The notes beneath the pieces are model-generated. The model was not told where the DNA came from. It searched no databases and saw only the letters and a list, made by a program, of their open reading frames with translations. A stretch of DNA of 25,373 nucleotides from a virus. Location of the stretch: the IMG/VR virus record IMGVR_UViG_3300042475_000565, positions 1 through 25,373 of that record; one strand, given 5' to 3'. Shown piece after piece: positions 6,368-25,252 of this stretch; position 1 is the first letter of the stretch, and each line of letters starts with the position of its first letter. A program made the position numbers and the translations under genes.

Positions 6368-7057
6368 GTGTCCGACCTTCTCCAGACCGGTGCGGCGTGG
6401 CTAGCCAATCGGCTGGCGGATTCTGCGGCCAGCCTCTGCACCTACCACCGGGGAAACAGTTTTGCCCAGGTGCGTGCCACCGTCGGCAGTTCGACGTTTG
6501 AGGCGGCATCGCAATCCGGCGTCGTTGAAATCTGGCAGTCTCGGGACTTCATCGTTAAGGCATCCGAATTGCCGTTTGGCGAACCGCTGCGGCACGACAC
6601 GATCGTTGAGACGATTGGCGGCGTTGACCTGACGTATGAAGTGACGAGCCCTTCGGGGATGCCGGTGTTCCGGTATGCCGACCCGTTCCGCAATTGCGTG
6701 CGGGTCCACACGATCGCCACCGACAAGAGTTCCGCGGCGCTGCCCACGCTCAAGCAACGCTACTGGGGCGTTTCGGCTTTGGCGACCGTGACCGACCAGC
6801 AGATCGTTGCACTGTTTTCGAGCGACTTGGCTGGCGCCAACGGGCAGACTCGAACGCTCACGCCTGCTAGCCAGCACATCTATTTCGTTCTGCCGGCGTC
6901 GTTCGGCGCTGCGTCGTTCACAGTCAACGGGCTGTACACCTCTGCGTGGGAATCCACCACTAGATCAATCACGTTCCCGTCGCAGGCGGCCGCAAGCTAC
7001 ACGATCTACCGTTCGACCTATGCCATCACGGGCAATGCGAAGGTGGTGGTGTCGTGA
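6368..7057 (+). CDS. Head-closure-like protein with fibre-like C-terminal domain
   Basis: The GTG start at 6368 follows a strong GAGGTGA (6358-6364). Residues 1-120 resemble a phage neck protein found between the cement and tail-terminator genes: LLQTGAAWLANRL, an RGNSFAQVRATVG strand, QSRDFIVKASEL, then RYADPFRNCVRVHT. It probably acts as a head-completion or stopper protein. Residues from about 128 to 229 (YWGVSAL..., IYFVLPASFGAASFTVNGL, YTIYRSTYAITGNAKVVVS) match a beta-rich domain usually seen at the end of phage tail fibres. The join is in frame with no sign of a broken gene. The next gene is a fibre and overlaps it by four bases. The N-terminal assignment is from memory of gene order and motifs. 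Confidence 0.6.
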   Translation: MSDLLQTGAAWLANRLADSAASLCTYHRGNSFAQVRATVGSSTFEAASQSGVVEIWQSRDFIVKASELPFGEPLRHDTIVETIGGVDLTYEVTSPSGMPVFRYADPFRNCVRVHTIATDKSSAALPTLKQRYWGVSALATVTDQQIVALFSSDLAGANGQTRTLTPASQHIYFVLPASFGAASFTVNGLYTSAWESTTRSITFPSQAAASYTIYRSTYAITGNAKVVVS

Positions 7058-8040
7058 GCGAGATAAAAGGCACAAATGTCATCGGGCCGGTGGTGCCGTT
7101 TGACACGACGGACACGCACGCCAGCCATTTGGCGAAGTATGGCCAGGGCGGATACCGCACCGCGGCTGACACAGCTGAACGGGATGCGATCCCTGCCGCT
7201 AGGCGAGAAGCCGGGATGCTCGTCTATGTCACGGCAGCGAACACAATCTACAAGCTAGGCGTAGACCTGACGACGTGGGACGAGTTTGGCGGCCCAACTG
7301 GGCCAACGGGCTCGGTTGGTCAGCAAGGTGCAACAGGGGCCGCTGGTGTGGTTAGCGTTGCGGCTCCGCTCGTCAACAGCGGGACAAGCACAGCTGCATC
7401 ACTGAGTCTTGACTACGGCACGGGCTTTGGTGTGATCGATGGCAAGCTGATTCTGTTCGGCGTGCCGCAGTCCAGTATTTCGGGTTTGACGGATGCGCTG
7501 ACGGCAAAAGCGGCTGTTGGTCATACGCACGCACTTAGCGCGCTGACGCAGTCCAGCGCAACGACCGGCCAAGTGGCAGCATGGAACGGAACGGCATGGG
7601 CGCCGGCGGCACCGTCTTCCGGCGCAACCGGACCCACGGGAAGCGCTGGCGCTGCCTCGACAGTCACGGGACCGACAGGCCCTTCGGGCGCCACCGGTGC
7701 GGCCTCTAACGTAACCGGGCCTACGGGCGCAACTGGCGCGGCGGGCGCTGCATCCACTGTTACTGGGCCAACCGGCGCGACTGGTTCGGTTGGTGACGCT
7801 TCGACGGTGACGGGTCCAACGGGAGCGACAGGCCCAGCGTCCACCGTGACGGGGCCGACGGGCAGCCCAGGTTCCGCTGGCGGTCAAGGCGTGACGGGGC
7901 CTACGGGTCCAGCCGGAAGCGGTGATGGCGGCGGGTCATCGTCGGCCTCGGACCTGACGACCGGCACACTCGCAGATGCCCTGCTCTCCGACAAAGCACG
8001 CGCCGCCGCAAACATCTACCTCTGGAGCAACTTCCGATAA
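7054..8040 (+). CDS. Collagen-like tail fibre protein 1
   Basis: A 328-residue fibre starting at GTG 7054 inside GTGA. Residues 1-80 hold a conserved phage fibre domain (TDTHASHLAKYGQGGYR, AERDAIPAARREAGMLVYV, LTTWDEFGG). A short collagen stretch follows (80-98), then a beta region with a GHTH motif (156-159) of the kind found in trimeric fibre shafts, where His pairs can bind metal. Residues 190-290 are collagen-like G-x-y repeats dominated by GPT and GAT triplets and broken at intervals by AASTVT. The C-terminus ASDLTTGTLADALLSDKARAAANIYLWSNFR (read in two parts) is a typical fibre ending. It probably forms trimers and binds the cell surface. Confidence 0.82.
   Translation: MSEIKGTNVIGPVVPFDTTDTHASHLAKYGQGGYRTAADTAERDAIPAARREAGMLVYVTAANTIYKLGVDLTTWDEFGGPTGPTGSVGQQGATGAAGVVSVAAPLVNSGTSTAASLSLDYGTGFGVIDGKLILFGVPQSSISGLTDALTAKAAVGHTHALSALTQSSATTGQVAAWNGTAWAPAAPSSGATGPTGSAGAASTVTGPTGPSGATGAASNVTGPTGATGAAGAASTVTGPTGATGSVGDASTVTGPTGATGPASTVTGPTGSPGSAGGQGVTGPTGPAGSGDGGGSSSASDLTTGTLADALLSDKARAAANIYLWSNFR
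7621..7920 (+). repeat. Collagen-like repeat tract in fibre 1
   Basis: About 300 bases of related 30-36-base units encode G-P-T-G-A-T-G and the interruption A-A-S-T-V-T. Units differ mainly at third codon positions, which suggests selection on the protein. The second fibre at 9742-9996 carries similar units, so the two tracts could recombine. Confidence 0.75.
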
Positions 8041-8423
8041 TGGCAACGAACCCATCATTCGCCGCTACGCCGCGCATCGCGTCCGTCAACATCGCGACCG
8101 CGAACACGAACCGCGACGGCTCTGGCACAGTTGCCACGCTCATCACGGGAGTGGCGGCCGGGACTCGCGTGAGCGAGATCGTCATCAAGGCTCGCGTCAC
8201 AACGACTGCTGGACAGGTGCGCGTGTTTTTGTACGACGGGACAACATTCTTCCTGTTCGATGAAATCGCGGTCGCAGCGGCAACCGTGTCCGCGAGCGTG
8301 CAGGGTGTTCGGCAAAGCGTCAGCTACAACAATCTGATTCTTCCATCCTCGTCGTGGTCGGTGCGAGTCAGTACGCACAACGCAGAATCAATTGACGTAA
8401 CCGCTCTCGGGGCCGACTTGTGA
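8040..8423 (+). CDS. Phage tail beta-sandwich protein
   Basis: A 127-residue protein with no signal peptide or membrane segment. It resembles a widespread small virion protein: ATPRIASVNIATANTNRDG near the start, then VSEIVIKARVTTTAGQVRVFLYDG (read in two strands), and a WSVRVSTHNAESIDVTALGADL-like ending with the conserved STHNAE motif. Alternating hydrophobic strands suggest a jelly-roll or beta-sandwich. Its ATG overlaps the stop of fibre 1 by one base, and its stop overlaps the GTG of the next gene. Among adhesin genes it probably serves as a fibre tip or fibre-associated subunit. Its precise role is unknown. Confidence 0.65.
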   Translation: MATNPSFAATPRIASVNIATANTNRDGSGTVATLITGVAAGTRVSEIVIKARVTTTAGQVRVFLYDGTTFFLFDEIAVAAATVSASVQGVRQSVSYNNLILPSSSWSVRVSTHNAESIDVTALGADL

Positions 8424-9265
8424 ATACCGGCATTTATGGCCTCGGCGCGGCGACGGCGGCGGGTGGCCCGTTCGGCCTGAACGGCGTTCCGGCACCGGCG
8501 ACGGTTCGCGTCCTCGTATTGGCCGGTGGTGGCGGCGGGCAGACTTCCTCTGGAGCCGGTGGAGGAGGGGCAGGCGCGGGCGGGATGCTGGAGCAGTTCG
8601 TAAACGTCACACTTGGCACCGCGATAGCCGTCTCGGTCGGCGGCGGGGGCGCGGCGGCGTCTCGTGGCTCAAACAGTTTTTTCGGCGGCGTGATCTGTAT
8701 CGGCGGCGGTGGTGGCGCAAGCAACCTCATCTCCGCTGCTGGAGGCTCTGGGGCAGGAGGCACCACGACGACGGCGGCGGGGCCGATTGCCAGCCAGCAA
8801 GGCAACACGGGCGGCGCGGTCCAAGGCGGCGCGCGTGGCGGCGGCGGTGGCGGTGCTGGTGGGAACGGCAGCGCTGGGTCCGCGACTGGAGGTGGTGCCG
8901 GCGGGGCGGGCCGCGAGACATCAATCACGGGGGCTTCGCAGACACTGGCAGGCGGCGGCGGCGGCGGGCCGGCGTCAACTCAATCCACTGTCTCTGCTGG
9001 CGGGTCTGGTGGCGGCGGCGTAGGCGCGAGCAATGCGACCGTAGCAGGAGCGGGGCTGGCTGGCACCGGCGGCGGCGGCGGCGGCGGGTGCAACGTAGCG
9101 GGATTCACTGTCGGCGGTCAGGGCGGATCGGGCCTCATCGTGCTGCGCTACTCGTCGCTCCTGCAAGTCCGAATCGGCTCGGGACTCACCTACTCAATCG
9201 CGAGTGCGGGCGGCGATCAAATCGTCACGATCACGGCCGGCACCGACACGATCTCTTGGAGTTGA
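8420..9265 (+). CDS. Glycine-rich (polyglycine) tail protein
   Basis: Starts at GTG 8420 overlapping the previous stop. The 281 residues contain a short N-terminal beta segment ending TVRVLVLAGGGGG, then repeated Gly-rich blocks interleaved with hydrophobic strands (TAIAVSVGGGG, VICIGGGGG), and a closing GGSGLIVLRYSSL strand. This is the pattern of glycine-rich phage adhesins; in the Salmonella phage S16 adhesin such runs form stacked polyglycine-II helices that present receptor-binding loops. The last 40 residues (VRIGSGLTYSIAS..., IVTITAGTDTISWS) form a small beta domain. The gene contains GGC triplet runs at 8951-8965 and 9068-9085 that could change length in frame. It is probably a receptor-binding or fibre-tip protein. 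Confidence 0.72.
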   Translation: MNTGIYGLGAATAAGGPFGLNGVPAPATVRVLVLAGGGGGQTSSGAGGGGAGAGGMLEQFVNVTLGTAIAVSVGGGGAAASRGSNSFFGGVICIGGGGGASNLISAAGGSGAGGTTTTAAGPIASQQGNTGGAVQGGARGGGGGGAGGNGSAGSATGGGAGGAGRETSITGASQTLAGGGGGGPASTQSTVSAGGSGGGGVGASNATVAGAGLAGTGGGGGGGCNVAGFTVGGQGGSGLIVLRYSSLLQVRIGSGLTYSIASAGGDQIVTITAGTDTISWS

Positions 9266-9563: not shown

Positions 9564-10313
9564 ATGCCTTTCTATTCGCTGCCAACTGGTGGATCGCCTG
9601 TTCTCGCCGGCAACGGTGCGCCGACGGGCGGCATCGGAAACGTTGGTGACATCTACCTAGACAAGACAAACAAAGGGCTTTACGGTCCAAAGGACGCCGT
9701 CACTGGATGGGGCAGCCCTGTAGACGTTTCTTCCGGCCCTACCGGCAGCACGGGCAGCACTGGGCCAGCATCAACGGTAACCGGCCCGTCTGGCCCGCAG
9801 GGCAGCACAGGTGCCACGGGCAGCACGGGGGCTGCATCGACGGTAACCGGCCCGCAGGGCAGCACGGGACCGACAGGACCGGCGTCCGCAGTGACCGGCC
9901 CGCAGGGCAGCACAGGACCAACGGGCAGATCCGTGACCGGCGCCACGGGCAGGCAGGGACCGACCGGCCCGGCAGTGACCGGCCCTACGGGCGGATTCGG
10001 TCTTCCTCAAGCAATCAACGCACAGACCACAGGTTACACGCTGGCGTTTGCCGACGCCGGAAGTCTGGTGACCGTAGACGTTGCCACCGGTCCCGTCGAA
10101 GTCATCGTGCCGGCATCTGCTGACGTTGATTTTCCGACCGGCACGCACGTTGACATCGCGCGGCTCGGTACAGGCGCCGTGCAGGTAACTGGTGCAACTG
10201 GCGTGACCGTCAACGCCACGCCTGGCACAAAGCTGCGCGATCAGTATTCCGCAGGGACGGTGATCCTCTATGCAGCTGACACGTGGCTGCTGGTTGGAGA
10301 CGTTGACGCATGA
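9564..10313 (+). CDS. Collagen-like tail fibre protein 2
   Basis: A 249-residue fibre. Residues 1-50 contain a fibre-type [26 protein letters not shown] segment (read in two parts). Residues 58-145 are collagen-like with GPT, GST and GPQ triplets and the same ASTVT/ASAVT interruptions as fibre 1. The C-terminal 100 residues ([53 protein letters not shown]) form a beta-rich domain seen at the end of many phage fibres, likely a trimerisation or tip domain. Its stop overlaps the ATG of the next gene. It may be a second specificity fibre, or part of the same fibre complex. Confidence 0.78.
9742..9996 (+). repeat. Collagen-like repeat tract in fibre 2
   Basis: Repeated units encode G-P-A-S-T-V-T-G-P and G-P-Q-G-S-T-G, with near-identical DNA words such as ACCGGCCCGCAGGGCAGCAC at several places. 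Nucleotide similarity between units is higher than in the tract of fibre 1, suggesting more recent amplification. Confidence 0.7.
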
Positions 10314-11764
10314 GAGGCAAGGCCGGTCTGTTCAGCCGGTTTGTCGTTCCTGCCGTGATCGCGTTTGACGGTAGCGATGGCGATGCCATCAACGTCGGTG
10401 GCGGCACTCGCAGCGGCACCGTTACGTACACCGGCGCCGGCCACACCACTTCGCGCGTTTTCAAGCTTGCTGGCACCAGCGGTGGCGCAACGTTTGATTC
10501 GTCAGGCACCGGCCCGCTTGTCGTGACGCAGGCGTTCACCTACACGACAGGTGCCAAAACGCTGACGATGACAGGCTCGAACACAGGCGCCAACTCGGTG
10601 GGCGTAATCGCAAACGCCGGAGGCCAGCCAATTTCTGTGGTGAAGTCGGGAGCCGGAACGTGGCAATTCTCCGCAACCAGTTCTTACGCAGGACAGACAA
10701 CGATTCTTTCCGGCACGGCCTTGGCTGCAGACGATGCGCCGTCCGATGGGAATGGCGTATTTGGGTACTCGTCTAGCGGCGGCCTTGGTTCTGGCTCTGC
10801 TGTCACGGTCCTGGGAGACGACGCCGCAGACTCATCTGGGTCTGCATCGCTGCTGTTGGATCAAGGCGCGCTGTTCGGCCGCTTGGTAACTATCCCCGCG
10901 CTCGGCACGGGTGGCGTGCAGACGGTCATCGTGGGCGGCGCAAACACATCTGGCACGACACGGTTTCAGTCTGCCATGACGTTCTATGTGAACAGGGACG
11001 TTGTCCTGCGGGCTGCAACTGGCGGCACGTGCGAGTTTGCCAATGGCTGGCTCGGTGGCGTTCCTGGCGACGTGGGTGGCGTTGCCGCTTCAATTACGGT
11101 GGGCAGTTCTGGAAACACTGGCACCGTGTTGGTGTCAGGCAACCTCTCCACGTCTGGTGTTATCACGCTGGCTTATGGAACCTTGAAGGTTACCGGCACA
11201 ATCGCCAGCACGGATGAAATCGTTGTTGATGGGACGGGTGCTGTTCTGGTCTACAACGGGGCTGCGGAACTGTTGTCGTCATTGACGCTGACGCAAGGCA
11301 CGTTGTCCGGTTCCAGCGAAATCGCAACGGCCGTAACGGCTGGAGCGAATGCCACGCTTTCACCCGGCGATCCTGTCGGGTCGCAAGCGTTTTCAGCCGG
11401 CCTAACGCTTGCCAGTGGCGGCACCTATCGCTGGCAAATCAACAACTGGACGGGTTCTGCTGGCAGCGGCTTTGCCCAGCTGGTTGTGTCAGGCGATGAC
11501 CTGTCGATCACGGCCACCAGCGGCAGCACGTTCACGATCAAACTGGTTGGGCTGACTTCCGGCAACGTCTCCGGTGCCGTTCCCAACTTTGACAACACAA
11601 CATCGAAGTCGTTCACGATTGCCACGGCCGGTACGCTGGCAGGGTTCGCATCCAACAAGTTCACGATCGACGCCAGCGAGTTCACGAACAACAACGATTT
11701 GGATGGCGGCACGTGGACGCTGTCCGACTCTGGCGATGACATCGTTTTGACCTTCACGCCATGA
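10310..11764 (+). CDS. Beta-solenoid fibre with autotransporter-associated (PATR) repeat
   Basis: A 484-residue Gly/Ser/Thr-rich protein with long runs of short beta strands. Residues about 108-140 carry a recognisable passenger-associated repeat ([34 protein letters not shown]), the motif found in autotransporter passenger domains and abundant in Planctomycetes and Verrucomicrobia. Further solenoid-like segments run to about 360, and ATLSPGD...[11 protein letters not shown] plus the ending [13 protein letters not shown] also match the C-terminal region of such repeat proteins. There is no autotransporter barrel and no convincing signal peptide. Placed among fibre genes and overlapping both neighbours, it is best read as a phage fibre or adhesin that borrowed a cellular solenoid. 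Confidence 0.7.
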
Positions 11765-12834
11765 TCCAGCACCTAGCGGCATTGAGCGTCCACGCCTTCT
11801 ACGCAGGCGAATTGGACGCTGGCCGCCGGTCATGCGAACGGCTGCTGTCTCTGCCCGGTCTGCCGCAGGAAATGGAAATGCAGACTAGGGTGAACCGCAC
11901 GTTTTACACGCAGCCGCTGGAGGAACTGGCTGGGTGCCGTTTCGTTCGGCTTGACGTTGAGCCGGCGCAGCCCGGCTGGTCTTGCTTCAATCCGACGATT
12001 GCAGACTGCGGCGGCCTGGTCGCAGTGGTCCGCTCGAGCAACTACCGGATCGTGGATGGCAGATACGTGATGCCGCCGGAAGACGGCGACACAATCCGCA
12101 CGCAGAATCTTCTGGTTCGCCTGCGGCCCGATTTGACCGTGGCCGACTGTCGGCCGATAGCCGGGCCGGAGTACCACCGGACCGAGTATCCGGTTGAGGG
12201 GCTCGAGGACTGCCGGCTGCGGCAGACCCAAGCGGGTATAGGTGTTTCCGCCACGGTCCGCGATGCGGCGCCGCTCAACGGCGACTGCCGGATTGGGATT
12301 GCCGATCTGGACGTTGACCGTGCCGAGTTCACAGGCCTGCGAATGCTGGACTGCCTGTCGCTGCAGCAGCATGAAAAAAACTGGATGCCGCTACAGGGAT
12401 GCGATGGTTGGGTCTACGCCGTCAGCCACGCCGGCCACACGGTCACGGTGGACGCTGACCCGTCGCTGCGTGGTGCGTATCTGATGCACCGCCGGTCGCC
12501 GGCGCCGCAGATTGGCAGCCAGTTCCGTGGTGGCTCGCAGTTGGTGCAATTCCGTGGCGGATGGCTCGGGCTGATACACGAAGTGGCGCACGGCGGCCAC
12601 AGGGTCTACGAACACCGCTGGGTATGGCTGGACAATTCGCTAACGCTCAAGCGGTGGTCGCTGCCGTTCGCGTTTCGCGAACTGCGAACAATTGAGTTCG
12701 CCGCTGGTCTTGCGATCACCGGCAGCAGCGTAGTGGCGTCGTTTGGCGTGCGAGACGCCGAAGCGTGGCTTGTGGACCTCGATGCGGGTTCCGTTGAAGG
12801 GATGCTTGCGGATGCTGCACCAGCAGATCGCTGA
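11761..12834 (+). CDS. GH130/GH43-like five-bladed beta-propeller protein
   Basis: A 357-residue protein. Residues 1-55 look like a helical TPR-type segment (LSVHAFYAGELDAGRRSCERLL, read in two helices). From about 60 on it resembles a five-bladed propeller of the GH130/GH43 type: FNPTI (76-80), EGLEDCRL (146-153, compare the ED-[PC]-R motif of GH130), HEKNWMPL (204-211), FRGGSQ (255-260), LIHEV (271-275) and IEFAAGL (311-317). GH130 enzymes phosphorolyse or hydrolyse mannosides; relatives of this subtype often sit beside glycosyltransferases. It may therefore process or recognise a glycan. Catalytic competence cannot be judged by eye. It overlaps the PATR fibre by four bases and the next gene by 23. 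Confidence 0.6.
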   Translation: MIQHLAALSVHAFYAGELDAGRRSCERLLSLPGLPQEMEMQTRVNRTFYTQPLEELAGCRFVRLDVEPAQPGWSCFNPTIADCGGLVAVVRSSNYRIVDGRYVMPPEDGDTIRTQNLLVRLRPDLTVADCRPIAGPEYHRTEYPVEGLEDCRLRQTQAGIGVSATVRDAAPLNGDCRIGIADLDVDRAEFTGLRMLDCLSLQQHEKNWMPLQGCDGWVYAVSHAGHTVTVDADPSLRGAYLMHRRSPAPQIGSQFRGGSQLVQFRGGWLGLIHEVAHGGHRVYEHRWVWLDNSLTLKRWSLPFAFRELRTIEFAAGLAITGSSVVASFGVRDAEAWLVDLDAGSVEGMLADAAPADR

Positions 12835-13351
12835 CGCACTGGCGAGGGCATGGATGCCAAATGACTGGTTTGCGCTGGACGCACGGTCGCTGCGGCACTA
12901 CCAGCACAAGGCTGACGCCGTTGCAGCGATCCAGCCTAAGACCGGCATTGAGATCGGAACCCGCTGCGGGTACTCGCTGCTGGCGTTCCACGTGGCCAGC
13001 CCTGGCACGCGATGGCTGTGCGTGGACGGCTGGCTAGACGCTGATTCGCCGCAGTGCATGGACCACTGGCAGCGGATCGTGGCGGAATGGCGGATCAATG
13101 CCCAGCTGCTGCGGGCCGACACTCGAGGTGTAACGGAGTTGCCGCCTGCGGACTTCGCGCACGTGGACGGCGATCATTCCTACGCCGGCGCCCTGGCGGA
13201 TCTGCACTTGGTCGCTGACGTTCCGGCGATCCTGGCGGATGATTGCGACAACGCCAGCGTGCGCCGGGCCGTCGAAGACTTCTGCGCTAGCAGGAACAGG
13301 CGGGCCACGTTCACCGACGATGGCCTGCGGCAATCGGCACTGATCCTATGA
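12812..13351 (+). CDS. Class I SAM-dependent methyltransferase (Methyltransf_24-like)
   Basis: I place the start at ATG 12812 (179 residues): GAAGGGA at 12796-12802 lies nine bases before it, and an earlier in-frame ATG at 12743 would overlap the propeller gene by 92 bases. Motif I is IEIGTRCGYS (46-55), followed by an acidic strand end CVDGW (70-74) and the family signature FAHVDGDHSYAGALADLHL (115-133). This arrangement is common in small methyltransferases of polysaccharide and glycoprotein gene clusters. It would transfer a methyl group from SAM, plausibly to a sugar. The stop overlaps the glycosyltransferase ATG. The domain is compact but complete. Confidence 0.68.
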   Translation: MLHQQIADALARAWMPNDWFALDARSLRHYQHKADAVAAIQPKTGIEIGTRCGYSLLAFHVASPGTRWLCVDGWLDADSPQCMDHWQRIVAEWRINAQLLRADTRGVTELPPADFAHVDGDHSYAGALADLHLVADVPAILADDCDNASVRRAVEDFCASRNRRATFTDDGLRQSALIL

Positions 13352-14403
13352 GTCTGAAAATTGGCGTTTACGCGCTGGCACGCAACGAAGAAAAGCACGT
13401 CTTTGACTGGTCGCATTCGTGTGACGAAGCCGACGTGCGTGTTGTCACCGACACGGGATCGACTGATTCCACAGTTGATCGGCTGCGGCAGTCAGGCGTG
13501 ACGGTTGCCACAGGGAACGTCGTGCCGTGGCGCTGGGACGATGCCCACAACCTTTCGCTCTACCACCTGCCGTCCGACGTAGATGTGTGCCTCCGCTTGG
13601 ACCTAGACGAACGCTTGTCGCCCGGCTGGCGGGAAGTAATTGAACGCGAGTGGACGGACGGCACCAATCAACTTTTCTACAAATACGTTTGGTCATGGGC
13701 TTCCGATGGCACGGAAGACTTGGTGTTCATTGCGGACCGCATCCACTCGCGGCACGGGTTTCGCTGGTCGGCACCAACGCACGAAGGGCTGATCTGCTGG
13801 CATGGCGAGAAACGGTCAAAGCTGACCACGGATCTGCAGATTTTCCACTTTCGAGACAAGGGGAAAAAGCACACCACCGACCTAGAGTTGTTGCGAATCG
13901 CCGTGCGCGAGGCTCCGCACGACGCACGGGCGCAGTGGTATCTAGCACGCGAAATGGACTACGCCGGGATGCCAGAGGCACGGGAAGCCTTTGAGCGGTA
14001 TTTGCAGATGGACGGCGGCATAGCGACAGAACGCGCATTCGCCTGCCGCATCTTGTGGAAGCTGACCGGCGATCCGTCCTGGTTGGTGCGGGCGACTGCG
14101 GAAGCGCCAGACGAGCCAGAAGCGTGGGAGCGGCTGGCGTTCCTCGCCTATCGCCAACGGGACTGGGGCAAGGTCGTGGCACTGGCCCGCAATGCCGTTG
14201 AGCGGCAGAACATCGGCACGCATTGCAGCGATCCACAGTCGCGCACCAAAGCGATGGACCTGCTGGCAGTCGCTCTGTGGGAACTTGGGAGGCGTCCAGA
14301 GGCACTGACGTTCGCCCGGCAGGCTCTGGCAAGATGTCCGAAAGACGCCCGCCTGCGCTCAAACGTGGCGGCCATGGAACAGACGCTAGGAGGCGCGGCG
14401 TGA
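13348..14403 (+). CDS. Family 2 glycosyltransferase with C-terminal TPR repeats
   Basis: A 351-residue soluble enzyme. The N-terminal GT-A domain has LARNEEKHV (10-18), the DTGSTDST loop (35-42) and a DxD-type LRLDLDE (82-88) for metal and nucleotide-sugar binding. The middle part (WSAPTHEGL, LQIFHFRD) matches GT2 enzymes of the glycan and SunS-like groups. Residues from about 180 to 345 are helical pairs typical of TPR (AREAPHDARAQWYLAREMDY, AWERLAFLAYRQRDWGKVVA, GRRPEALTFARQALARCPKD), as in O-glycosyltransferases that grip a protein acceptor. It overlaps the methyltransferase upstream and the tail-terminator GTG downstream. It likely glycosylates a virion or host surface target. Confidence 0.78.
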   Translation: MSLKIGVYALARNEEKHVFDWSHSCDEADVRVVTDTGSTDSTVDRLRQSGVTVATGNVVPWRWDDAHNLSLYHLPSDVDVCLRLDLDERLSPGWREVIEREWTDGTNQLFYKYVWSWASDGTEDLVFIADRIHSRHGFRWSAPTHEGLICWHGEKRSKLTTDLQIFHFRDKGKKHTTDLELLRIAVREAPHDARAQWYLAREMDYAGMPEAREAFERYLQMDGGIATERAFACRILWKLTGDPSWLVRATAEAPDEPEAWERLAFLAYRQRDWGKVVALARNAVERQNIGTHCSDPQSRTKAMDLLAVALWELGRRPEALTFARQALARCPKDARLRSNVAAMEQTLGGAA

Positions 14404-14858
14404 GTAGTTATCTGCGGCAGATTGCCGACGCGCTAGCCACTAGCCTGGATGGCGTCACGTGGGCGATTCAGTCCACGACCGTGGAACGAAAGAACTGGGT
14501 CAGCATCGACGTGGAGTCGATGGCCAATCCGGTGGTCTACGTCACGCCTGGGTCCGCTGACGTGACCCGCATCGGACGCCGGCAGACGCAGGTGGACTAT
14601 GACGTGCAGGTGTTCGTTGGCAGACACGTCACGACCGATCAAGACGTTGACGGGATGCTCGATCTGGCAAACGACATCTTCCGCCAGGTGAAGGCCCACC
14701 AGTTTGATGATATCGAGGACTGGCCAGAGGGCGTAACGAGCCCGCAGACGGTCACGATCGACCTAAACCCTGACGATGCGTTGAGTGAGCGAAACGTCTG
14801 GCGGGCGGCGATTGTTGCCACCTATCGCGTCCTTGAAAGCGACGACCTGCCGGAGTGA
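14400..14858 (+). CDS. Tail terminator / tail completion-like protein
   Basis: I choose the GTG at 14400, preceded by a near-perfect AGGAGG (14388-14393), giving 152 residues; an upstream ATG at 14223 only extends the frame into the glycosyltransferase gene. The protein starts SSYLRQIADALATSL and has strands such as VDYDVQVFVGRHV and NVWRAAIVATYRVLE. The helix-strand pattern, size and position resemble phage tail-terminator (lambda gpU-like) or minor tail proteins, which cap the tail tube and join it to the neck. The next gene is gp10-like, which fits. The family was inferred from size and context more than from a diagnostic motif. Confidence 0.5.
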   Translation: MSSYLRQIADALATSLDGVTWAIQSTTVERKNWVSIDVESMANPVVYVTPGSADVTRIGRRQTQVDYDVQVFVGRHVTTDQDVDGMLDLANDIFRQVKAHQFDDIEDWPEGVTSPQTVTIDLNPDDALSERNVWRAAIVATYRVLESDDLPE

Positions 14859-14864
14859 ACGCAC

Positions 14865-15671
14865 ATGCGTGCTAGCCGTGCATGGATTAGACCTGGCCAG
14901 ATTGGCGGCAACCGCCGGTCACGGTCTGCCGCCACTGATCTGAAGTTGGCGTTGAACTTCAAGATCAAAAGCGGGTTTTTCGACCGCGCCCATGTTCGCC
15001 GGATGCTGGATGCCACTAACCAGACGTGTCTGATAAAGGCCGGGCTGAATATCAAAGAGGCTGCAAAGAAGGGCATTGGCCAAAAGCCACCAGCGAAAAC
15101 AAAGGCTGGCAAGCGCGCGGTCAATTCCGGGGCCATCGTTGAGTTTGTCGGTGGCCTATACAAAGATTTGACGATGGTGAACAGCGGGAAGCCGCGGTCT
15201 GCCGGCAGTCCAATCAAATCGTGGGGGCCGAAGCGGTTCACCTACGCAGACATAAAGGACTATTTCGACACCAGCCGCAAGACGGCAGTGATCGGGGCCG
15301 CCAAGGCGCCGTGGCTCAACAAGCTGCATGAGTTTGGCGGAACGCTGCGGCTGCGTGCGTGGCGCACTGGCGTTGGCGCCGCACGAAATGCTTATCTGCG
15401 AAGGTCTGCCGGTCGAAGCGGGGCCGGGCGCGATGCGTCAGGAAGATTCACGAAAGGCACAAGCCTCGGCCCGCAACGGAATCAGTTTGACTACGGGCTG
15501 CTTGTCTGGACCAACAAAAAGCCACGGCATTCCCGCAACTGGGAAGCCACCACGATTGTGAAGACGGCCCGCTATCCGGCCCGCCCGTTCATGCAGGGCG
15601 CTCGGCTTGTGCAAAAGGCCGTTGCCAAAGCGAACGAAAAGTGGCGGAACGCTCTGCGGAAAACAGGCTAG
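14865..15671 (+). CDS. HK97 gp10 / virion morphogenesis-like tail protein
   Basis: A basic 268-residue protein. The second half has the typical gp10/gpG-like signature: LNKLHEFGG (after residue 145) and, near the end, YPARPFMQGARLVQKAVAKA. Such proteins act in tail completion at the neck. It is longer than most family members because of a Lys/Arg-rich insert (about 165-205) and an extended N-terminus rich in Arg. GGAG at 14852-14855 sits nine bases before the ATG. The gene is followed by a 73-base gap with the 14-nt repeat at its stop codon, which marks the border to the tail-tube genes. Confidence 0.55.
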   Translation: MRASRAWIRPGQIGGNRRSRSAATDLKLALNFKIKSGFFDRAHVRRMLDATNQTCLIKAGLNIKEAAKKGIGQKPPAKTKAGKRAVNSGAIVEFVGGLYKDLTMVNSGKPRSAGSPIKSWGPKRFTYADIKDYFDTSRKTAVIGAAKAPWLNKLHEFGGTLRLRAWRTGVGAARNAYLRRSAGRSGAGRDASGRFTKGTSLGPQRNQFDYGLLVWTNKKPRHSRNWEATTIVKTARYPARPFMQGARLVQKAVAKANEKWRNALRKTG

Positions 15672-15682
15672 CCACACCCCCT
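15669..15682 (+). repeat. 14-nt repeat at stop codon, copy 2
   Basis: Identical to the copy at 2280-2293 (TAGCCACACCCCCT) and likewise starting with a stop codon. The rest of the gap (15683-15744) contains no clear promoter or hairpin. Confidence 0.5.
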
Positions 15683-15744
15683 ACGCCGCTTTGCTGTGCT
15701 GGCCCTAATCTGCAAGCACACCCGACCAAGGAGCACACAAGCCA

Positions 15745-16062
15745 ATGGCCATTACTCTCGGCAAGGACGTGACAATCGCTGGCGTCTCAAACGCTCGGTC
15801 TTGCACCGTCACGTCCAGCGCATCGGAAGTGGACGTTACCAAGCTTGGCGATTCGTCGCGCAAGTACCGCAAGGCGCTGATCGAGCAGACGATTGAGGTT
15901 GAATGCGTTGACGATCCCGGCGTCGAGGCTGGCGACGTGTTCACGATCACTGGCACCGAGACGGGAAACGCAGACTACATCTGCACAAGCGTTGCCCAGT
16001 CAGAGCCGCTTGACGGCATTGTGACGTACACGGTTTCCGGCTCTCGCACCGTTGCCGACTGA
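15745..16062 (+). CDS. Tail-tube-like protein, paralogue 1
   Basis: A 105-residue beta-rich protein beginning MAITLGKDVTIAGVSNARSC. It is the first of three adjacent genes that share the N-terminus MAITLGKD and similar length and strand pattern. The core includes ASEVDVTKLGDSSRKY, a pattern seen in major tail proteins where the strand before a DxTxxGD loop packs the tube, and it ends ITYTVSG-like (GIVTYTVSGSRTVAD). AAGGAG at 15728-15733 serves the ATG. The position before the tail chaperone is where the major tail protein belongs. I cannot tell which of the three is the main tube subunit. Confidence 0.6.
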   Translation: MAITLGKDVTIAGVSNARSCTVTSSASEVDVTKLGDSSRKYRKALIEQTIEVECVDDPGVEAGDVFTITGTETGNADYICTSVAQSEPLDGIVTYTVSGSRTVAD

Positions 16063-16066
16063 CAAG

Positions 16067-16089
16067 CACACACACACGCACCCACACAC
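16067..16089 (+). repeat. CA-rich simple repeat between tail-tube paralogues
   Basis: A run of CACACACACACGCACCCACACAC lies between paralogues 1 and 2, just before the AAGGAC ribosome binding site (16091-16096). A similar CA-rich string precedes paralogue 1 (15714-15740), so the leader seems to have been duplicated with the gene. Length changes would alter spacing upstream of the ribosome site, not the coding frame. Confidence 0.6.
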
Positions 16090-16101
16090 TAAGGACAGCA
16101 C

Positions 16102-16419
16102 ATGGCCATCACTCTCGGCAAGGACCAGACAGCGCCTCCGGTTGGCACGAACATCATTTCTGCCACCTACACCGAGGAATGCGAAACGATCGACATCAGC
16201 AACCGAGACAACATCGGCGGCAGCGCCGGGGACCCGGGCTACAAGATGTCCACGGCAGGGTTCACCACGAAGACGTGGGAGATTGAGTGCCACGACGCGA
16301 CCAGTTTGATTGCTGACCTTCAGGCAAACGCCAGTAGCGGTTGGAAGGTCATGAGCGTCACGGAGAACATCGGAGTTGACGGCGCCGTGACGTTTTCGGT
16401 GACTGCCAAGGAGTTCTGA
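16102..16419 (+). CDS. Tail-tube-like protein, paralogue 2
   Basis: A 105-residue protein with the same MAITLGKD start as its neighbours. The middle has TYTEECETIDISNRDNIGG, again a strand followed by a DISxxxN-type loop, then TKTWEIECHDATSLIADLQ and a final VTENIGVDGAVTFSVTAKEF. The pairing of a strand-helix-strand core with a terminal VTFSV strand suggests the same beta-barrel fold as paralogues 1 and 3. The ATG follows AAGGA by six bases. It may be a tube subunit or a specialised ring protein. Confidence 0.58.
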   Translation: MAITLGKDQTAPPVGTNIISATYTEECETIDISNRDNIGGSAGDPGYKMSTAGFTTKTWEIECHDATSLIADLQANASSGWKVMSVTENIGVDGAVTFSVTAKEF

Positions 16420-16422
16420 TCC

Positions 16423-16779
16423 TTGGCCATCACGCTCGGCAAAGACTGCACCGTTTCAGTTGGCAGCAACATTGTCAGCGCTCGCAGTGTGACGTTTACG
16501 GAGTCAGCGCGGACCATTGAAATAAACGAGTTTGGGTCGCGGTACTCGTCCGTCTATTCGACGGGCTTTGACGCATCTGTGTCCGTGGAACTAAACGACT
16601 CTGCGGATGCAACCGACTTGTTTGCGACGTTGGAAGACGGCGACGAAATCACGGTTTCCGGCGGCGCTGGCGGCTGGTCGTTTCCTGCTGTCGTCACGGG
16701 CATTTCAGAGACTTGCCCGGTAGACGGCGTGGCGACGTTCACGATTGAAGCGCGAATGACAAAAAGCGGGCTGCGATAA
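16423..16779 (+). CDS. Tail-tube-like protein, paralogue 3 (TTG start)
   Basis: The start is TTG at 16423, with AAGGAG (16408-16413) nine bases upstream. The rare start is supported because it yields MAITLGKD, as in the other two copies. The 118 residues include VTFTESARTIEINEFGSRYSS, strands FDASVSVELND, LFATLEDGDEITVSGG, and the end VDGVATFTIEARMTKSGLR. It is slightly longer than its paralogues at the C-terminus. Only three bases separate it from paralogue 2, so its ribosome site lies inside that gene. The weak start codon could keep this subunit at a lower dose, for example as a tube-end protein. Confidence 0.58.
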   Translation: MAITLGKDCTVSVGSNIVSARSVTFTESARTIEINEFGSRYSSVYSTGFDASVSVELNDSADATDLFATLEDGDEITVSGGAGGWSFPAVVTGISETCPVDGVATFTIEARMTKSGLR

Positions 16780-21066: not shown

Positions 21067-21596
21067 TGGCAGGCGACAACTACCGAATCGAAAAGGGCCA
21101 GCGTCTGTCCTCGGCCGTGTCTGCACGGGCGTGGAACCGGGCGCAGGATGCCGCCGACGTTGTGCTTGGGTCTGTCACTGGCTTTGATGCGGGGGACAGC
21201 ACGCCTGGTGCTCGAGCGGCGAACATCATCCTCCTACGGAACGACGCTGGCATTGTCGTGCCGCAATTTGGCGTCCTGCGTATTGGATCGCCAATCGTTC
21301 TGGGTGATCCAGAGAAGCCGTCGCAGTTCGGGCAGAACATGGTGCTAACCGGATTGATGCCTGACGGACTGTCGCCGTTCGCGGTTGCCATGGAGCCGAT
21401 TGAAGTTGGCAAGATCGGGCAATGTGCGATCGGCGGAAGATTTGCCTGCAAAGTTAAGGTTGTCACTGCTGGCCACAAATACGCACGCTCAAGGAACAAC
21501 GACGTAACGCAGCTGATCAGCACGGCGTGCGGCCCATTGCGGCTTGTGTGGTCGCAGGGTGTGGGTGACGACAAGTTCGCCGCTGGTGTTATGTGA
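21066..21596 (+). CDS. Conserved hypothetical tail-tip protein
   Basis: A 176-residue protein beginning MAGDNYRIEKGQRLSSAVSA, with AWNRAQDAADVVLG near the start, a VPQFGVLRIGSPIVLGDP strand set, and a C-terminal CGPLRLVWSQGVGDDKFAAGVM. I recall similar proteins among tail genes of GC-rich environmental and planctomycete phages, always without a known function. No enzymatic motif, signal or membrane segment is seen. The beta-rich, small character fits a structural tail-tip subunit. Its last bases overlap the GTG of the large tail-tip gene by four bases. Confidence 0.5.
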   Translation: MAGDNYRIEKGQRLSSAVSARAWNRAQDAADVVLGSVTGFDAGDSTPGARAANIILLRNDAGIVVPQFGVLRIGSPIVLGDPEKPSQFGQNMVLTGLMPDGLSPFAVAMEPIEVGKIGQCAIGGRFACKVKVVTAGHKYARSRNNDVTQLISTACGPLRLVWSQGVGDDKFAAGVM

Positions 21597-24500
21597 CTTG
21601 CACGTGCTGCGTATGCGCCGGGCTTCCGCTCACTCGTGGATTTGGCGGGCCTGTTTGGCTCAACGGCAGCGATCAAAACCTAGACTTCACCACAACAAAA
21701 CTGGTGACGTGGGCTGACGCTGGGGGCTCACTCCACAACGTTGTTGACGGCCACGGCCCTATTGAAATGCAGGGCCAGCCCGGCTGGGATTCTTTTGTTG
21801 ACGGCCGCTGGCTGTCAGGGTCTTCAGTCACGTTCACGAAACTGGACGGGCCTGGCCTATCGCTGGGAACGTTTCTGTTTCCGAGCGTGTGGACGATTGA
21901 TTACCCAGACAACGAAACACTATCGGCACTCCCGAAATCTGGTTCCGTTACGGCGTCGCTCTACGGCGTGTCGCTGGCGCTGTCCTACTCGCTGACGCTT
22001 AATCAACTAGATGCCTCTGTCAGCAATGCCGTCTACGTTGACAAGAGCGACAATGGCGACCCGCCGTTCACAGCGTCAGCGGTTATTGGCCAGCAAATCC
22101 AGTCACGCACGTTTACGCCAGCCGTCACCTTGCCGTCAGTCCTTGATATGTCTGCCAGTGTTGTTTCCAGCGATGGAACATCGCTGGAGGAATTCACGGA
22201 AAGGCCGCTTGATGGATTGAAGGATTTGCTGTGCTGGCGAGAGGTGTTCCCTGGCACTGATCAAGCCAAATGGAACCTGCAGCAGCAGCAACTTGGTGGC
22301 GCTGACCAATCGCCACCGATCACGTCTGGCTACACGATTTCCCACACGCTTGAATTCAATGGGGAACAAAGGCTGTTGTTGCCGGAAGGCGGCGGACCGC
22401 GCCCAGCGTGGCCGTATCCAGCGTCGCTGTCGTTTGTCTGCAGCGGTCAGCCAACAGACGAGGCACTGCCAACGTCTGGGTTCTGGACGGCGGCTGTGTT
22501 TCGTCCGACGCATTTGAACTGGGCTCGGCAGACGCACATTGACTACGACGTAACCGGACCAACAGGAACCGTCAGCCCGTACATCAAGGGGCGATTGGTA
22601 GGCATTGACCGTGGAAACACTGCCTACCAAGACGCCGGATCGGGAATGCTTTATTCGCTTTCGTGCAATGGCGTTGAGACGCTACCGCCAACCCAAGCAC
22701 CGACCAGGCAGCAACTGTTTGACGCGACCAGCGGCGAGGGATCGTACTTGGTAACAGTCACGCCGACTGGTTCTTACGGTTATCCAAGCACTGCAATTCC
22801 GACAAACAAGGATTTTTTTAGCTTCGTCATTGACAGGAAAAAGCCTGTCGTCGGATTTGCTCCCTTGGATGACATCTTTGCTCTCGGCGTCGTTCCTAAT
22901 AGCGTCCTTACGTCCACAAAACCGCTGGCGGCTCCAAACTGCCCAGACGAAGAATCAGCCGACGGCTTTTTGCCTAGGCCATTGTTTTTTGACGGCGTCA
23001 ATAACTTCTTGAAGCAGGATGGCGTCAACGCCACTACTCTTGGCGCAACGCCCGGCACTTACACGCTCCAAGCGTTTTCTGTTTCCCAGTGCCATGATTT
23101 TTCCGGCAACAATCCAGACCAATCGTTTTCGCAGTCATGGACGGTCCATGCCAAGCACGCAAACCACCGGCCGGAAAGTCAGGTTGGCGGGCACTCCTAC
23201 TACGGCGCCGTCCCAGCAATTGAGCAGCCTGGCCTGTTGACGCGCGAGTATTACCGCGCACGGTTGCAGTCAGAACAAATCACGTCGCTTAAGCTGACAT
23301 TTGATCGTCCGGTGGACGCCAGCACCGTGGACGCTTCGCAGGTAACGCTGCGGGCCAACGGCGTGCCAGTTGGCGGATGCACGATAGAGCAAGTTGACGC
23401 AACGACGCGCAACTGGCGTATCAACATTCCAGCAGGAGTTCAGAATTCGGCCACGTTCCTAATGCTTGAATATGACCCATCCGGCAACGTGATGACGGCT
23501 GACGTATTCCCAGAGGTTCACTATCCAACGAAAGACGACTTTCCAACAGATCCGCAGCGGATGGCGGAACTGTTCCGATTAGTCTTTATTTCCGACAACG
23601 ACAACAGACGTTATTCGGTTTCCGTCAATCCAGCCACTTTTGCGATTTCATACGTTGAGATAGCCGGCAACCCGCTGGACTGGAACGGCAATCCATATGA
23701 CCCAGAGCCGTCTGTGATTGCGGCCAGAGCCAGCTGGCTTATGGCGGACACTGGCGGCTGGCCCCGCATGATTGACACCAGTTCCGTGCTGCGCGGATTC
23801 GTTGTTGGGCGTGCCGCAAGCATCGGCGCAAGTTCGTCAATCAATATGCAGCAGAACGACTTGGCAATTTCGTCAAGCGGTGATATTGGGATTGCGGCAG
23901 AGTCTTCGCCTGGGCCGTTCAATTTTTTAGGGGCAACCGCTTTGCCTCCTGTGCAGCCGCAGCAGGATTTTATCGACTTTGGATTGGTCGCCACGGCCGT
24001 GAACTACGAAGGCTTTGTGCCTCGGGTTCCTGTCGCCGGAGCGACAGGGCCATTTTCCTACTGGGGCCTCGGCACGACGATTGATCCCAGCCCGCCAGCG
24101 CTGGTGTCACAGTGCGCCGGGCCGAGCGAGGCGCAGTGGCACAGTTCAGCAATCGTCTGCGCGACAGAAATCACGGAAGTCACGGCTCGAATTGTGCTGC
24201 TGGATGAAGACGGAAACGAAATACAACCGCCGGACGACGTTGGCGGGGCGTACTTCCAAGGAAAAGTTTTGTTCCCTGGCGGGCCGCTTGACAACACCAA
24301 CGCAATACCGGCGTGGACTGGTCCTGCACCTGGCGACTTCAACCACGTTGCGCGCGACCTGTTTCCGCGCATCATGTGCCTAGACAGCGAGCCGCCGCCG
24401 CCCGATATCAAGTTGGTTACCACCTTTCAAGCAGCTACGCTGTCGCAGAACGTGTGGGCCTGCGTCAATAGTGGTGGCGGCGCGGAAGTGGAAGCCGTTC

Positions 24501-25252
24501 CTGCGGCGACTAGAAACGCATTCTTTCTATCCGGCGACACATTCACGGAATCCAACCACTGGCTGGATGAGAGCCCGTATTTTCGGCTGCACTTCGACAG
24601 CGCGGAAAAAACGTTTGGTGATTCAGAGACGACCGAAGAACAGGCGAAAGACGGGCTGCGGTTTACCAAAGAGGAATTGCTGGTTGGTGGCCCGTTCCCG
24701 TTTGGAGAAACGGAACTGCAGCGGCGCATTCGCAGCGTGAAGTCTGCAACGTATTCGCTTGAAGGCGTCCAAGCAATGCTGTCCGTATGCCGGCAGGCGA
24801 AGACCTTTCCGGCGCTCAAGACGACGACGCTTGGTCCGCTTGTGTTGACGCTGTCATTTCGTGCGTGCATCAAAGCCGAAACGGAATACGAGGATTTCAG
24901 CGTCAAGCCTTCGGATCACGTGCGAGTGATGGGCGAAATAGATGGCTGGCCAAACGTCACACTGCAGGAAAACGTGACGTTCTCTGAAGCCATGGACTGG
25001 CTTATGGACAACAGAATTGCGTTGGATGCTGTAGCCAACACATGGAAAGTGCAGCCGTTTCGGTGGCTGATGTATTGCGAGAAAGACCAGTCTCTTGCCA
25101 CTCGAACGCTAACTGAACGGGTACTCAGCGATTACGCCTACACCCACACGCTGACGCCTGACCAAGAAGTGGCACTAGCCAACGGCGATGAAATCACGAT
25201 GCCGCTTGGTGGCGTGGATGGTGCGTACAGCGTCAAACTAAAGCGGAGCTAG
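21593..25252 (+). CDS. Large tail-tip/baseplate hub-like protein with Ig-like domain
   Basis: A 1219-residue protein from GTG 21593. It begins MTCTCCVCAGLPL, a CxCCxC cluster (Cys 3, 5, 6, 8) that could bind metal. The middle is mostly beta-rich, without family motifs I can name. Residues about 555-640 look like a bacterial Ig-like domain: ITSLKLTFDRPVDASTVDAS, QVTLRANGVPVGG, WRINIPAGV, FLMLEYDPSG. The C-terminal third (about 870-1219) includes VTARIVLLDEDGNEIQPPDD, SGDTFTESNHWLD and a long helical/strand region to SVKLKRS. Location after the tape measure and size suggest the central tail-tip protein or a receptor-binding platform. There are no visible enzymatic residues. It is the largest gene here. 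Confidence 0.5.
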   Translation: MTCTCCVCAGLPLTRGFGGPVWLNGSDQNLDFTTTKLVTWADAGGSLHNVVDGHGPIEMQGQPGWDSFVDGRWLSGSSVTFTKLDGPGLSLGTFLFPSVWTIDYPDNETLSALPKSGSVTASLYGVSLALSYSLTLNQLDASVSNAVYVDKSDNGDPPFTASAVIGQQIQSRTFTPAVTLPSVLDMSASVVSSDGTSLEEFTERPLDGLKDLLCWREVFPGTDQAKWNLQQQQLGGADQSPPITSGYTISHTLEFNGEQRLLLPEGGGPRPAWPYPASLSFVCSGQPTDEALPTSGFWTAAVFRPTHLNWARQTHIDYDVTGPTGTVSPYIKGRLVGIDRGNTAYQDAGSGMLYSLSCNGVETLPPTQAPTRQQLFDATSGEGSYLVTVTPTGSYGYPSTAIPTNKDFFSFVIDRKKPVVGFAPLDDIFALGVVPNSVLTSTKPLAAPNCPDEESADGFLPRPLFFDGVNNFLKQDGVNATTLGATPGTYTLQAFSVSQCHDFSGNNPDQSFSQSWTVHAKHANHRPESQVGGHSYYGAVPAIEQPGLLTREYYRARLQSEQITSLKLTFDRPVDASTVDASQVTLRANGVPVGGCTIEQVDATTRNWRINIPAGVQNSATFLMLEYDPSGNVMTADVFPEVHYPTKDDFPTDPQRMAELFRLVFISDNDNRRYSVSVNPATFAISYVEIAGNPLDWNGNPYDPEPSVIAARASWLMADTGGWPRMIDTSSVLRGFVVGRAASIGASSSINMQQNDLAISSSGDIGIAAESSPGPFNFLGATALPPVQPQQDFIDFGLVATAVNYEGFVPRVPVAGATGPFSYWGLGTTIDPSPPALVSQCAGPSEAQWHSSAIVCATEITEVTARIVLLDEDGNEIQPPDDVGGAYFQGKVLFPGGPLDNTNAIPAWTGPAPGDFNHVARDLFPRIMCLDSEPPPPDIKLVTTFQAATLSQNVWACVNSGGGAEVEAVPAATRNAFFLSGDTFTESNHWLDESPYFRLHFDSAEKTFGDSETTEEQAKDGLRFTKEELLVGGPFPFGETELQRRIRSVKSATYSLEGVQAMLSVCRQAKTFPALKTTTLGPLVLTLSFRACIKAETEYEDFSVKPSDHVRVMGEIDGWPNVTLQENVTFSEAMDWLMDNRIALDAVANTWKVQPFRWLMYCEKDQSLATRTLTERVLSDYAYTHTLTPDQEVALANGDEITMPLGGVDGAYSVKLKRS

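Follow-up and report, generated by a model that had tools for sequence, protein, structure and literature searches.

A three-gene cassette beside collagen-like fibre genes of an uncultured phage: a probable fibre glycosylation module

Gene content of the locus

The IMG/VR virus record IMGVR_UViG_3300042475_000565, a stretch of 25,373 bases that was analysed in full and is referred to here as the window, displays the usual late-gene arrangement, in the order large terminase, portal, protease/major capsid, fibre genes, a block of three genes, connector genes, tail-tube-like paralogues and tape measure (the connector and tail-tube labels, covering 14400-16779, were assigned mainly from position). 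The three-gene block, which is the subject of this work, is made of PROP (11761..12834), MT (ending at 13351) and GT (13348..14403), encoding a propeller protein, a methyltransferase and a glycosyltransferase, respectively, all of them on the + strand and in overlapping reading frames (by 23 nt between PROP and MT and by 4 nt between MT and GT). A preliminary description of this DNA had already placed the three overlapping genes in this order and at these coordinates, and had proposed that they decorate the phage's own collagen-like fibres or, alternatively, that they modify host surface sugars to block superinfection. The first of these possibilities is, as discussed below, the one best supported by the evidence collected here.

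Upstream of the block lie two collagen-like open reading frames (ORFs). COL1 (7054..8040, + strand; 328 aa), which matches PHROG tail fiber families, consists of an N-terminal adapter followed by interrupted GPT/GAT/GST tracts, and COL2 (9564..10313, + strand; 249 aa) is a collagen-like fibre or minor tail protein (PHROG 8780, minor tail protein, E 1.2e-15) with Thr in the Y position of its Gly-X-Y (GXY) triplets (22 triplets, Y=Thr fraction 0.55). The collagen tracts of both proteins are short and interrupted, and stems of this kind, including those in the window, were missed by a detector requiring six consecutive GXY triplets. Shorter runs and counts of the GxTG motif were used instead and, because greedy longest-ORF calling chose the wrong frame in some GC-rich loci, all ORFs were scanned. 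COL1 and COL2 contain 16 and 14 GxTG motifs, respectively, versus about 1.2 in composition shuffles (0/2000 shuffles reached such counts), and among the genes of the window an enrichment above ten times the shuffle mean is confined to these two. The Thr-rich character attributed earlier to both ORFs is thus borne out, and their products would be the substrates of glycosylation. The block had also been described as directly following the two fibre genes; it does follow them, but not directly, since a 484-aa gene (PATR; 10310..11764, + strand; Pfam PATR, E 4e-6), encoding a passenger-repeat protein and probable fibre, intervenes after COL2 and overlaps PROP by 4 nt. It is possible that PATR is a further substrate. 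A glycine-rich fibre gene (8420-9265; Pfam Gly_rich_2, phrog_2295) is found between both collagen genes.

GT and its link to peptide and collagen glycosyltransferases

The assignment of GT (351 aa) as a GT2 glycosyltransferase with C-terminal TPR repeats, made in the preliminary description, holds on three counts: its match to PHROG 13126 (E 3.5e-78), its match to TPR_2 (E 1.4e-8) and a structure model (pLDDT 89.9) showing a GT-A domain followed by a TPR superhelix. The nucleotide-binding motif DTGSTD (13450..13467, + strand) is nearly invariant in 22 relatives and shared with SgtA of Clostridioides difficile, and the LDLDER sequence (13597..13614, + strand), containing the DxD metal motif, has invariant D85, D87, E88 and R89. 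The C-terminal superhelix (13924..14400, + strand; model helices 193-350) would be the domain that docks the fibre. The collagen-peptide-binding family TPR_P4H was considered for this part of the protein, where it scored below threshold in 15/22 members and lower than ordinary TPR families, and it was retained as a lead only. PHROG 13126 itself is classified among the moron/host-takeover families and carries the annotation beta-1,4-glycosyltransferase.

Among solved folds, GT comes nearest to two peptide glycosyltransferases, ThuS and SunS (Foldseek E 4e-14), which share with it the combination of GT-A and TPR, at a sequence identity of 13-16%. These glycocin S-glycosyltransferases modify Cys residues of short antimicrobial peptides. 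The GT profile also matched the flagellin glycosyltransferase GmaR, and it aligned SgtA, whose sequence was retrieved via its published primer sequence, from end to end (positions 3-339 of 349, 79 bits). SgtA is a 358-aa enzyme, also of the GT2 type with C-terminal TPR repeats, that transfers beta-O-GlcNAc onto Thr of the GPT repeats of BclA3 in vitro; the genes for SgtA and BclA3 are neighbours (PMC7157674), just as GT lies near GPT-rich collagen genes. GT is probably the protein O-glycosyltransferase that would initiate the glycan.

The association with collagen genes extends to cellular relatives of GT. Among 63 loci carrying such relatives (33-53% identity, mostly from spore-forming Firmicutes), a collagen gene was found in 22, always at a distance of at most 1.31 kb and in 16 cases of at most 400 bases, with a median Y=Thr of 0.75. 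Chance would predict about 1.3% per locus, a rough figure because loci vary in length and the relatives are not independent, and the corresponding binomial p is ~1e-25. This expectation was derived from eight of these genomes, in which 18 GXT clusters were counted over 26.1 Mb, and replaced a comparison of close and distant GT2 loci that was underpowered (Fisher p 0.08). Moreover, GXT repeats were present in 25/25 tested genomes with GT relatives. No PROP or MT relatives were found in the cellular GT loci searched other than that of SgtA, a locus covered over 3 kb only. Two or more SgtA-like GT copies are present in most of the Firmicutes loci (L218-L297), at times beside the collagen gene. 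GT relatives (40%; 53% over 131 aa) were also seen in two contigs of the Planctomycetaceae metagenome-assembled genome UBA4732 (L268, L277), without other window homologues, a weak hint, and the only one as to the host, that the phage of the window might draw on a planctomycete gene pool or have a planctomycete host.

Distribution of the cassette among phages

In dozens of IMG/VR contigs (54-100% identity), a PROP-X-GT block, X being the middle gene, occupies the same place, preceded by the fibres and followed by the connector gene, and PROP, full-length in 83 loci, accompanies GT in nearly all complete ones. Matching presence of the operon and of Thr-rich fibres had been set beforehand as a check, and it was examined in distinct contigs spanning the whole interval from the major capsid protein to the connector gene, 26 of them with the operon and 9 without it. 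Gly-X-Thr triplets occur in 26/26 operon-bearing contigs, with Thr at Y in 543/1159 triplets and at X in 13, and frequent occurrence of the operon without collagen was not seen in this lineage. The nine operon-less contigs have Y=Thr in 29/176 triplets, 20 of these 29 belonging to one contig (L174). In most operon-less sisters the COL1 orthologue is reduced to 89-92 aa, with the N-terminal adapter kept and the collagen stem gone, so that in this clade stems and operon were lost together while capsid and connector/tail genes were kept; one member, L122, retains a stem with a Y=Thr of 0.07. The adapter (7054-7290 in the window, 7258-7500 in L122, and in the sister loci), free-standing in operon-less phages, constitutes there a natural stem deletion.

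Pairing of these enzymes with collagen genes recurs independently in unrelated phages. A 96-kb contig (L091) encodes one protein of 675 residues in which the GT2-TPR enzyme and the PROP propeller are fused; its gene follows three collagen genes rich in GPT, and a Methyltransf_24 gene lies near the fusion. In the Actinomycetia phage DSL-LC01, a GT relative follows two GPT collagens with Y=Thr of 0.65-0.70, and among 80 IMG/VR relatives of this type a collagen gene, of the GPT/GAT kind, was present in 50 and within 1 kb in 33, with Thr fractions of 0.64 at Y and 0.02 at X. Cyanophage DSL-LC02 carries a PROP relative, accompanied by FkbM partners, next to a collagen-like gene in which GTQ/GTT triplets, with Thr at X, abound, and this pattern recurs in many relatives of the phage. 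Because these PROP relatives adjoin collagens with Thr at X, the Y-threonine signature tracks GT and not PROP. Cyanophage-type PROP relatives were found in at least 600 IMG/VR contigs, often beside GTQ/GTT-rich collagen-like genes with TPR-FkbM partners (L356, 6264-12708; L454-L533), and this set may represent a second, different fibre-modifying system.

PROP and the interchangeable middle gene

PROP is predicted to consist of a short TPR-like N-terminus and a five-bladed propeller of the GH130 superfamily. Pfam and single-sequence PDB searches gave no match, and window PROP did not reach the curated cut-off of PF04041, which 7/23 relatives matched weakly (best E 0.013); the first profile-PDB matches, to designed propellers ("Cake"), were judged to reflect composition and repeats and were discarded. 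It was the structure that settled the fold: in an AF2 model built with 23 aligned relatives (pLDDT 88.5, pTM 0.89), the top 35 Foldseek matches in the PDB were all GH130 mannoside phosphorylases/synthases and structural-genomics relatives (best 9erg, E 7.8e-11), with the Leishmania GT108 mannosyltransferase MPT-2 just below them. A propeller like those of GH130 or GH43 had been suggested, and it is the GH130 half of that suggestion that stands, the fold search giving no support for GH43.

The GLEDCRL motif of PROP (12199..12219, + strand), with invariant Glu149-Asp150-Arg152, aligns with the (Y/E)DPR catalytic Asp motif of GH130, and N77, D150, R152 and D332, which do not vary across 23 sequences, pair with GH130 N25, D89, R91 and D287 in a weak profile alignment (E 0.053). 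A second motif, HEKNWMP (12370..12390, + strand), contains the invariant Lys206, which by its spacing may be the counterpart of the lysine specific to beta-1,2 GH130 enzymes (PMC4599007). In the GH130 enzyme BT3780, changes at E141, D142, K199 or D363 abolish activity, E141Q and D142N being inactive (PMC4599007). PROP thus resembles the GH130 mannoside phosphorylases and GT108 mannosyltransferases in its five-bladed fold and in its N/ED/R/D active-site pattern, and differs from the GH130 matches in its low identity (11-17%), its additional N-terminal TPR-like helices, an unclear phosphate site and its location in a virion operon. Of the phosphate-site residues, His273 is conserved and the Arg/Lys partners align uncleanly with GH130 in the same weak alignment, so that hydrolysis, phosphorolysis and transfer are not distinguishable. 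PROP presumably extends or edits the glycan.

MT (12812..13351, + strand) scores 38.1 bits against Methyltransf_24 (E 3.2e-9), above the curated cut-off of 26.3, which confirms its initial classification. Its ORF is open from 12743, and the ATG at 12812, where its relatives start, is the most likely start, giving a protein of 179 aa. The predicted S-adenosylmethionine (SAM)-binding motif I, IEIGTRCGYSL (12947..12979, + strand), shows little or no variation across 11 relatives, and the segment HVDGDHSY...ILADD..N (13160..13252, + strand) contains invariant Asp128, Asp152, Asp153 and Asn156 in the alignment of relatives. Together with E56 and G58, these residues form SAM motif I and an Asp/Asp-Asp/Asn metal-site pattern, by which MT is classed as a metal-dependent class I O-methyltransferase; catechol-type O-methyltransferases are matched weakly in the PDB. 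What fills the middle position varies across phages: methyltransferases (the Methyltransf_24 type of the window, an FkbM enzyme and a second one), glycosyltransferases (GT2 enzymes and one that, below the Pfam cut-off, resembles GT34) or 231-residue proteins without an assigned family. Two of the latter (about 231 aa; L010, 4355-5050, and L041, 2373-3068) have no Pfam match and are likely to be glycan-acting enzymes. A constant initiator and extender flanking a swappable decorator is what would be expected of a glycan-building cassette.

Proposed function and alternative explanations

These observations can be integrated by assuming that the cassette is a late-expressed, cytosolic glycosylation module acting on the phage's own collagen-like fibres, to which we assign a probability of about 0.73. 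From the computed gene order, conservation, folds, SgtA homology and collagen association, a substrate, an order of action, the sugars and a benefit can be proposed as follows. GT would use its TPR superhelix to dock fibre chains that are still unfolded and, with a nucleotide sugar as donor, would place the first sugar on the Y-position Thr of Gly-X-Thr before trimerisation; action on unfolded chains is proposed because in animal collagen the modifications occur before trimer formation (PMC8968730). PROP, GH130/GT108-like and working with GT, would then add or remodel a second sugar, probably beta-linked and of the mannose type, and the middle gene, here the O-methyltransferase MT, would cap the glycan. 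Since other methyltransferases or glycosyltransferases occupy this position in sister phages, the outer glycan would vary between them. Likely benefits would be a collagen stem that is stiffened without recourse to hydroxyproline, and a variable coat relevant to proteases or adsorption. Glycosylated threonine is a recognised means of stabilising collagen (Bann 2000, as cited in PMC3368898).

Several facts weigh against this explanation. The operon-less phages form a single clade (100/99 support) nested within the operon-bearing tree, so that the contrast among sister phages represents one evolutionary loss, and two of them (L174 and L175) retain collagen with a Y=Thr of about 0.29. No collagen gene was found within the flanking DNA examined in 41/63 cellular GT loci, near about 12 DSL-LC01-type GT genes whose contigs had sufficient upstream DNA, or within 6 kb of the GT relative of phage PaBG. 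Thr accounts for 31.6% of the residues at Y in bacterial collagens as a whole, and for 48.3% in those of Gram-positives (PMC8968730), and because of this frequency Y=Thr alone is not diagnostic of glycosylation. Finally, the phage collagen EPclA made in E. coli is stable without sugars (PMC3368898).

Phage seroconversion glycosyltransferases are well known, and the cassette could accordingly alter O-antigen-like or capsule sugars at the surface of the host and block superinfection. The filing of PHROG 13126 as a moron family and the annotation of the PaBG homologue as a lipooligosaccharide (LOS) glucosyltransferase would fit such a role. However, PROP, MT and GT have no predicted membrane segment (maximum 19-residue hydropathy 0.72-1.38), and within the three-gene block there is neither a GtrA/GtrB-like partner nor any extra gene, that is, none of the hallmark membrane flippase and membrane-bound bactoprenol glycosyltransferase of Gtr seroconversion. 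Because the proteins lack membrane segments and are kept within the late structural block, and considering also the peptide-transferase folds nearest to GT and the close association with genes for Thr-rich collagens, seen in phages as in spore-formers, this alternative of the preliminary description is weakened and appears improbable. Nearly as improbable, in our opinion, is that the enzymes glycosylate other virion proteins (capsid, tail tube, PATR or the glycine-rich fibre), as in phages Che8, Corndog and Myrna, the collagen genes being mere neighbours. Phage enzymes do glycosylate capsid and tail tube, as cited in PMC12363180 and PMC11256854, and the PaBG relative of GT has a prohead protease gene and a tail gene, and no collagen, in its vicinity; yet capsid and connector/tail genes stay in the clade from which stems and operon vanished together, and the cellular homologues adjoin collagen genes.

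A narrower alternative retains GT as the fibre glycosyltransferase and takes PROP as a trimming phosphorylase/hydrolase or a binding module, and MT as methylating something else. Most of the known GH130 enzymes cleave beta-mannosides (PMC8950772), the middle gene does not always encode a methyltransferase, and the residue equivalences of PROP derive from motif spacing and a weak profile alignment. Against this, PROP travels with GT and is fused to it in L091, and same-fold GT108 members are dual transferase-phosphorylases, so we regard this variant as unlikely, if still worth keeping in mind. The possibility that no glycosylation occurs, the Thr-rich triplets being ordinary bacterial collagen composition and the enzymes belonging to unrelated small-molecule metabolism, gains from the general abundance of Thr at Y in bacterial collagens, but it would leave unaccounted for the active-site motifs invariant across wide divergence, the homology to SgtA, a collagen adjacency far above chance and the independent pairing in unrelated phages, and it seems very remote. 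Decoration of the phage's own collagen-like fibres, as proposed in the preliminary description, is therefore the best-supported explanation, given the Gly-X-Thr triplets in every operon-bearing sister, the full-length homology to SgtA and the bacterial adjacency above chance. Whether it amounts to a widespread modular O-glycosylation system of uncultured phages, with an SgtA-like initiator, a GH130/GT108-fold extender and a swappable cap, in which outer fibre sugars vary like O-antigens, is a proposition for which we see about even odds; if true, phages deprived of the module would come under selection to lose their Thr-rich collagen stems as well.

Elsewhere in the window, cross-searches show three successive genes of 105-118 aa (15745-16779) to be mutually similar, the first of them having a weak match to a major tail protein family, and an ORF of 1219 aa at the end of the record (21593-25252) has no PHROG match.

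Significance and comparison with known systems

If the proposed function is correct, a compact fibre-glycosylating operon recurs in unrelated phage groups and shares its initiator with spore exosporium systems, linking two fields. The GPT/GAT triplets and GT would provide a ready substrate-enzyme pair, glycosylation could explain how phage collagen stems are stabilised without prolyl hydroxylase, and the swappable middle gene would open fibre-glycan diversification to direct testing. It also suggests that some "moron" glycosyltransferases located near fibre genes modify proteins and not the host. In our search, from which subscription journals were mostly absent, no published report of phage-encoded glycosylation of collagen-like fibres was found. 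The component ideas are already known, namely phage self-glycosylation of capsid and tail tube, glycosylation of spore collagens and collagen glycosylation by mimivirus.

In the exosporium of Bacillus, the O-glycans of the Thr-rich BclA stem include methylated sugars and are made by a different biosynthetic operon. The likeness to the system proposed here lies in the O-glycans carried on collagen-like stems (BclA glycosylation is cited in PMC8968730), and the same holds for SgtA and BclA3 of C. difficile, which differ in acting at a bacterial spore surface and not on a virion. As in mycobacteriophages Che8, Corndog and Myrna, phage glycosyltransferases would decorate their own virion, although in those phages, according to PMC12363180 and PMC11256854, the targets are capsid and tail tube and not collagen-like fibres; within the literature surveyed, and as far as these sources go, phage virion glycosylation is documented for only a few mycobacteriophages, on these structures. 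The collagen hydroxylase-glucosyltransferase L230 of mimivirus, finally, provides a case of a virus glycosylating its own collagen, in this instance on hydroxylysine, by another type of enzyme and in a virus of amoebae (PMC9614988).

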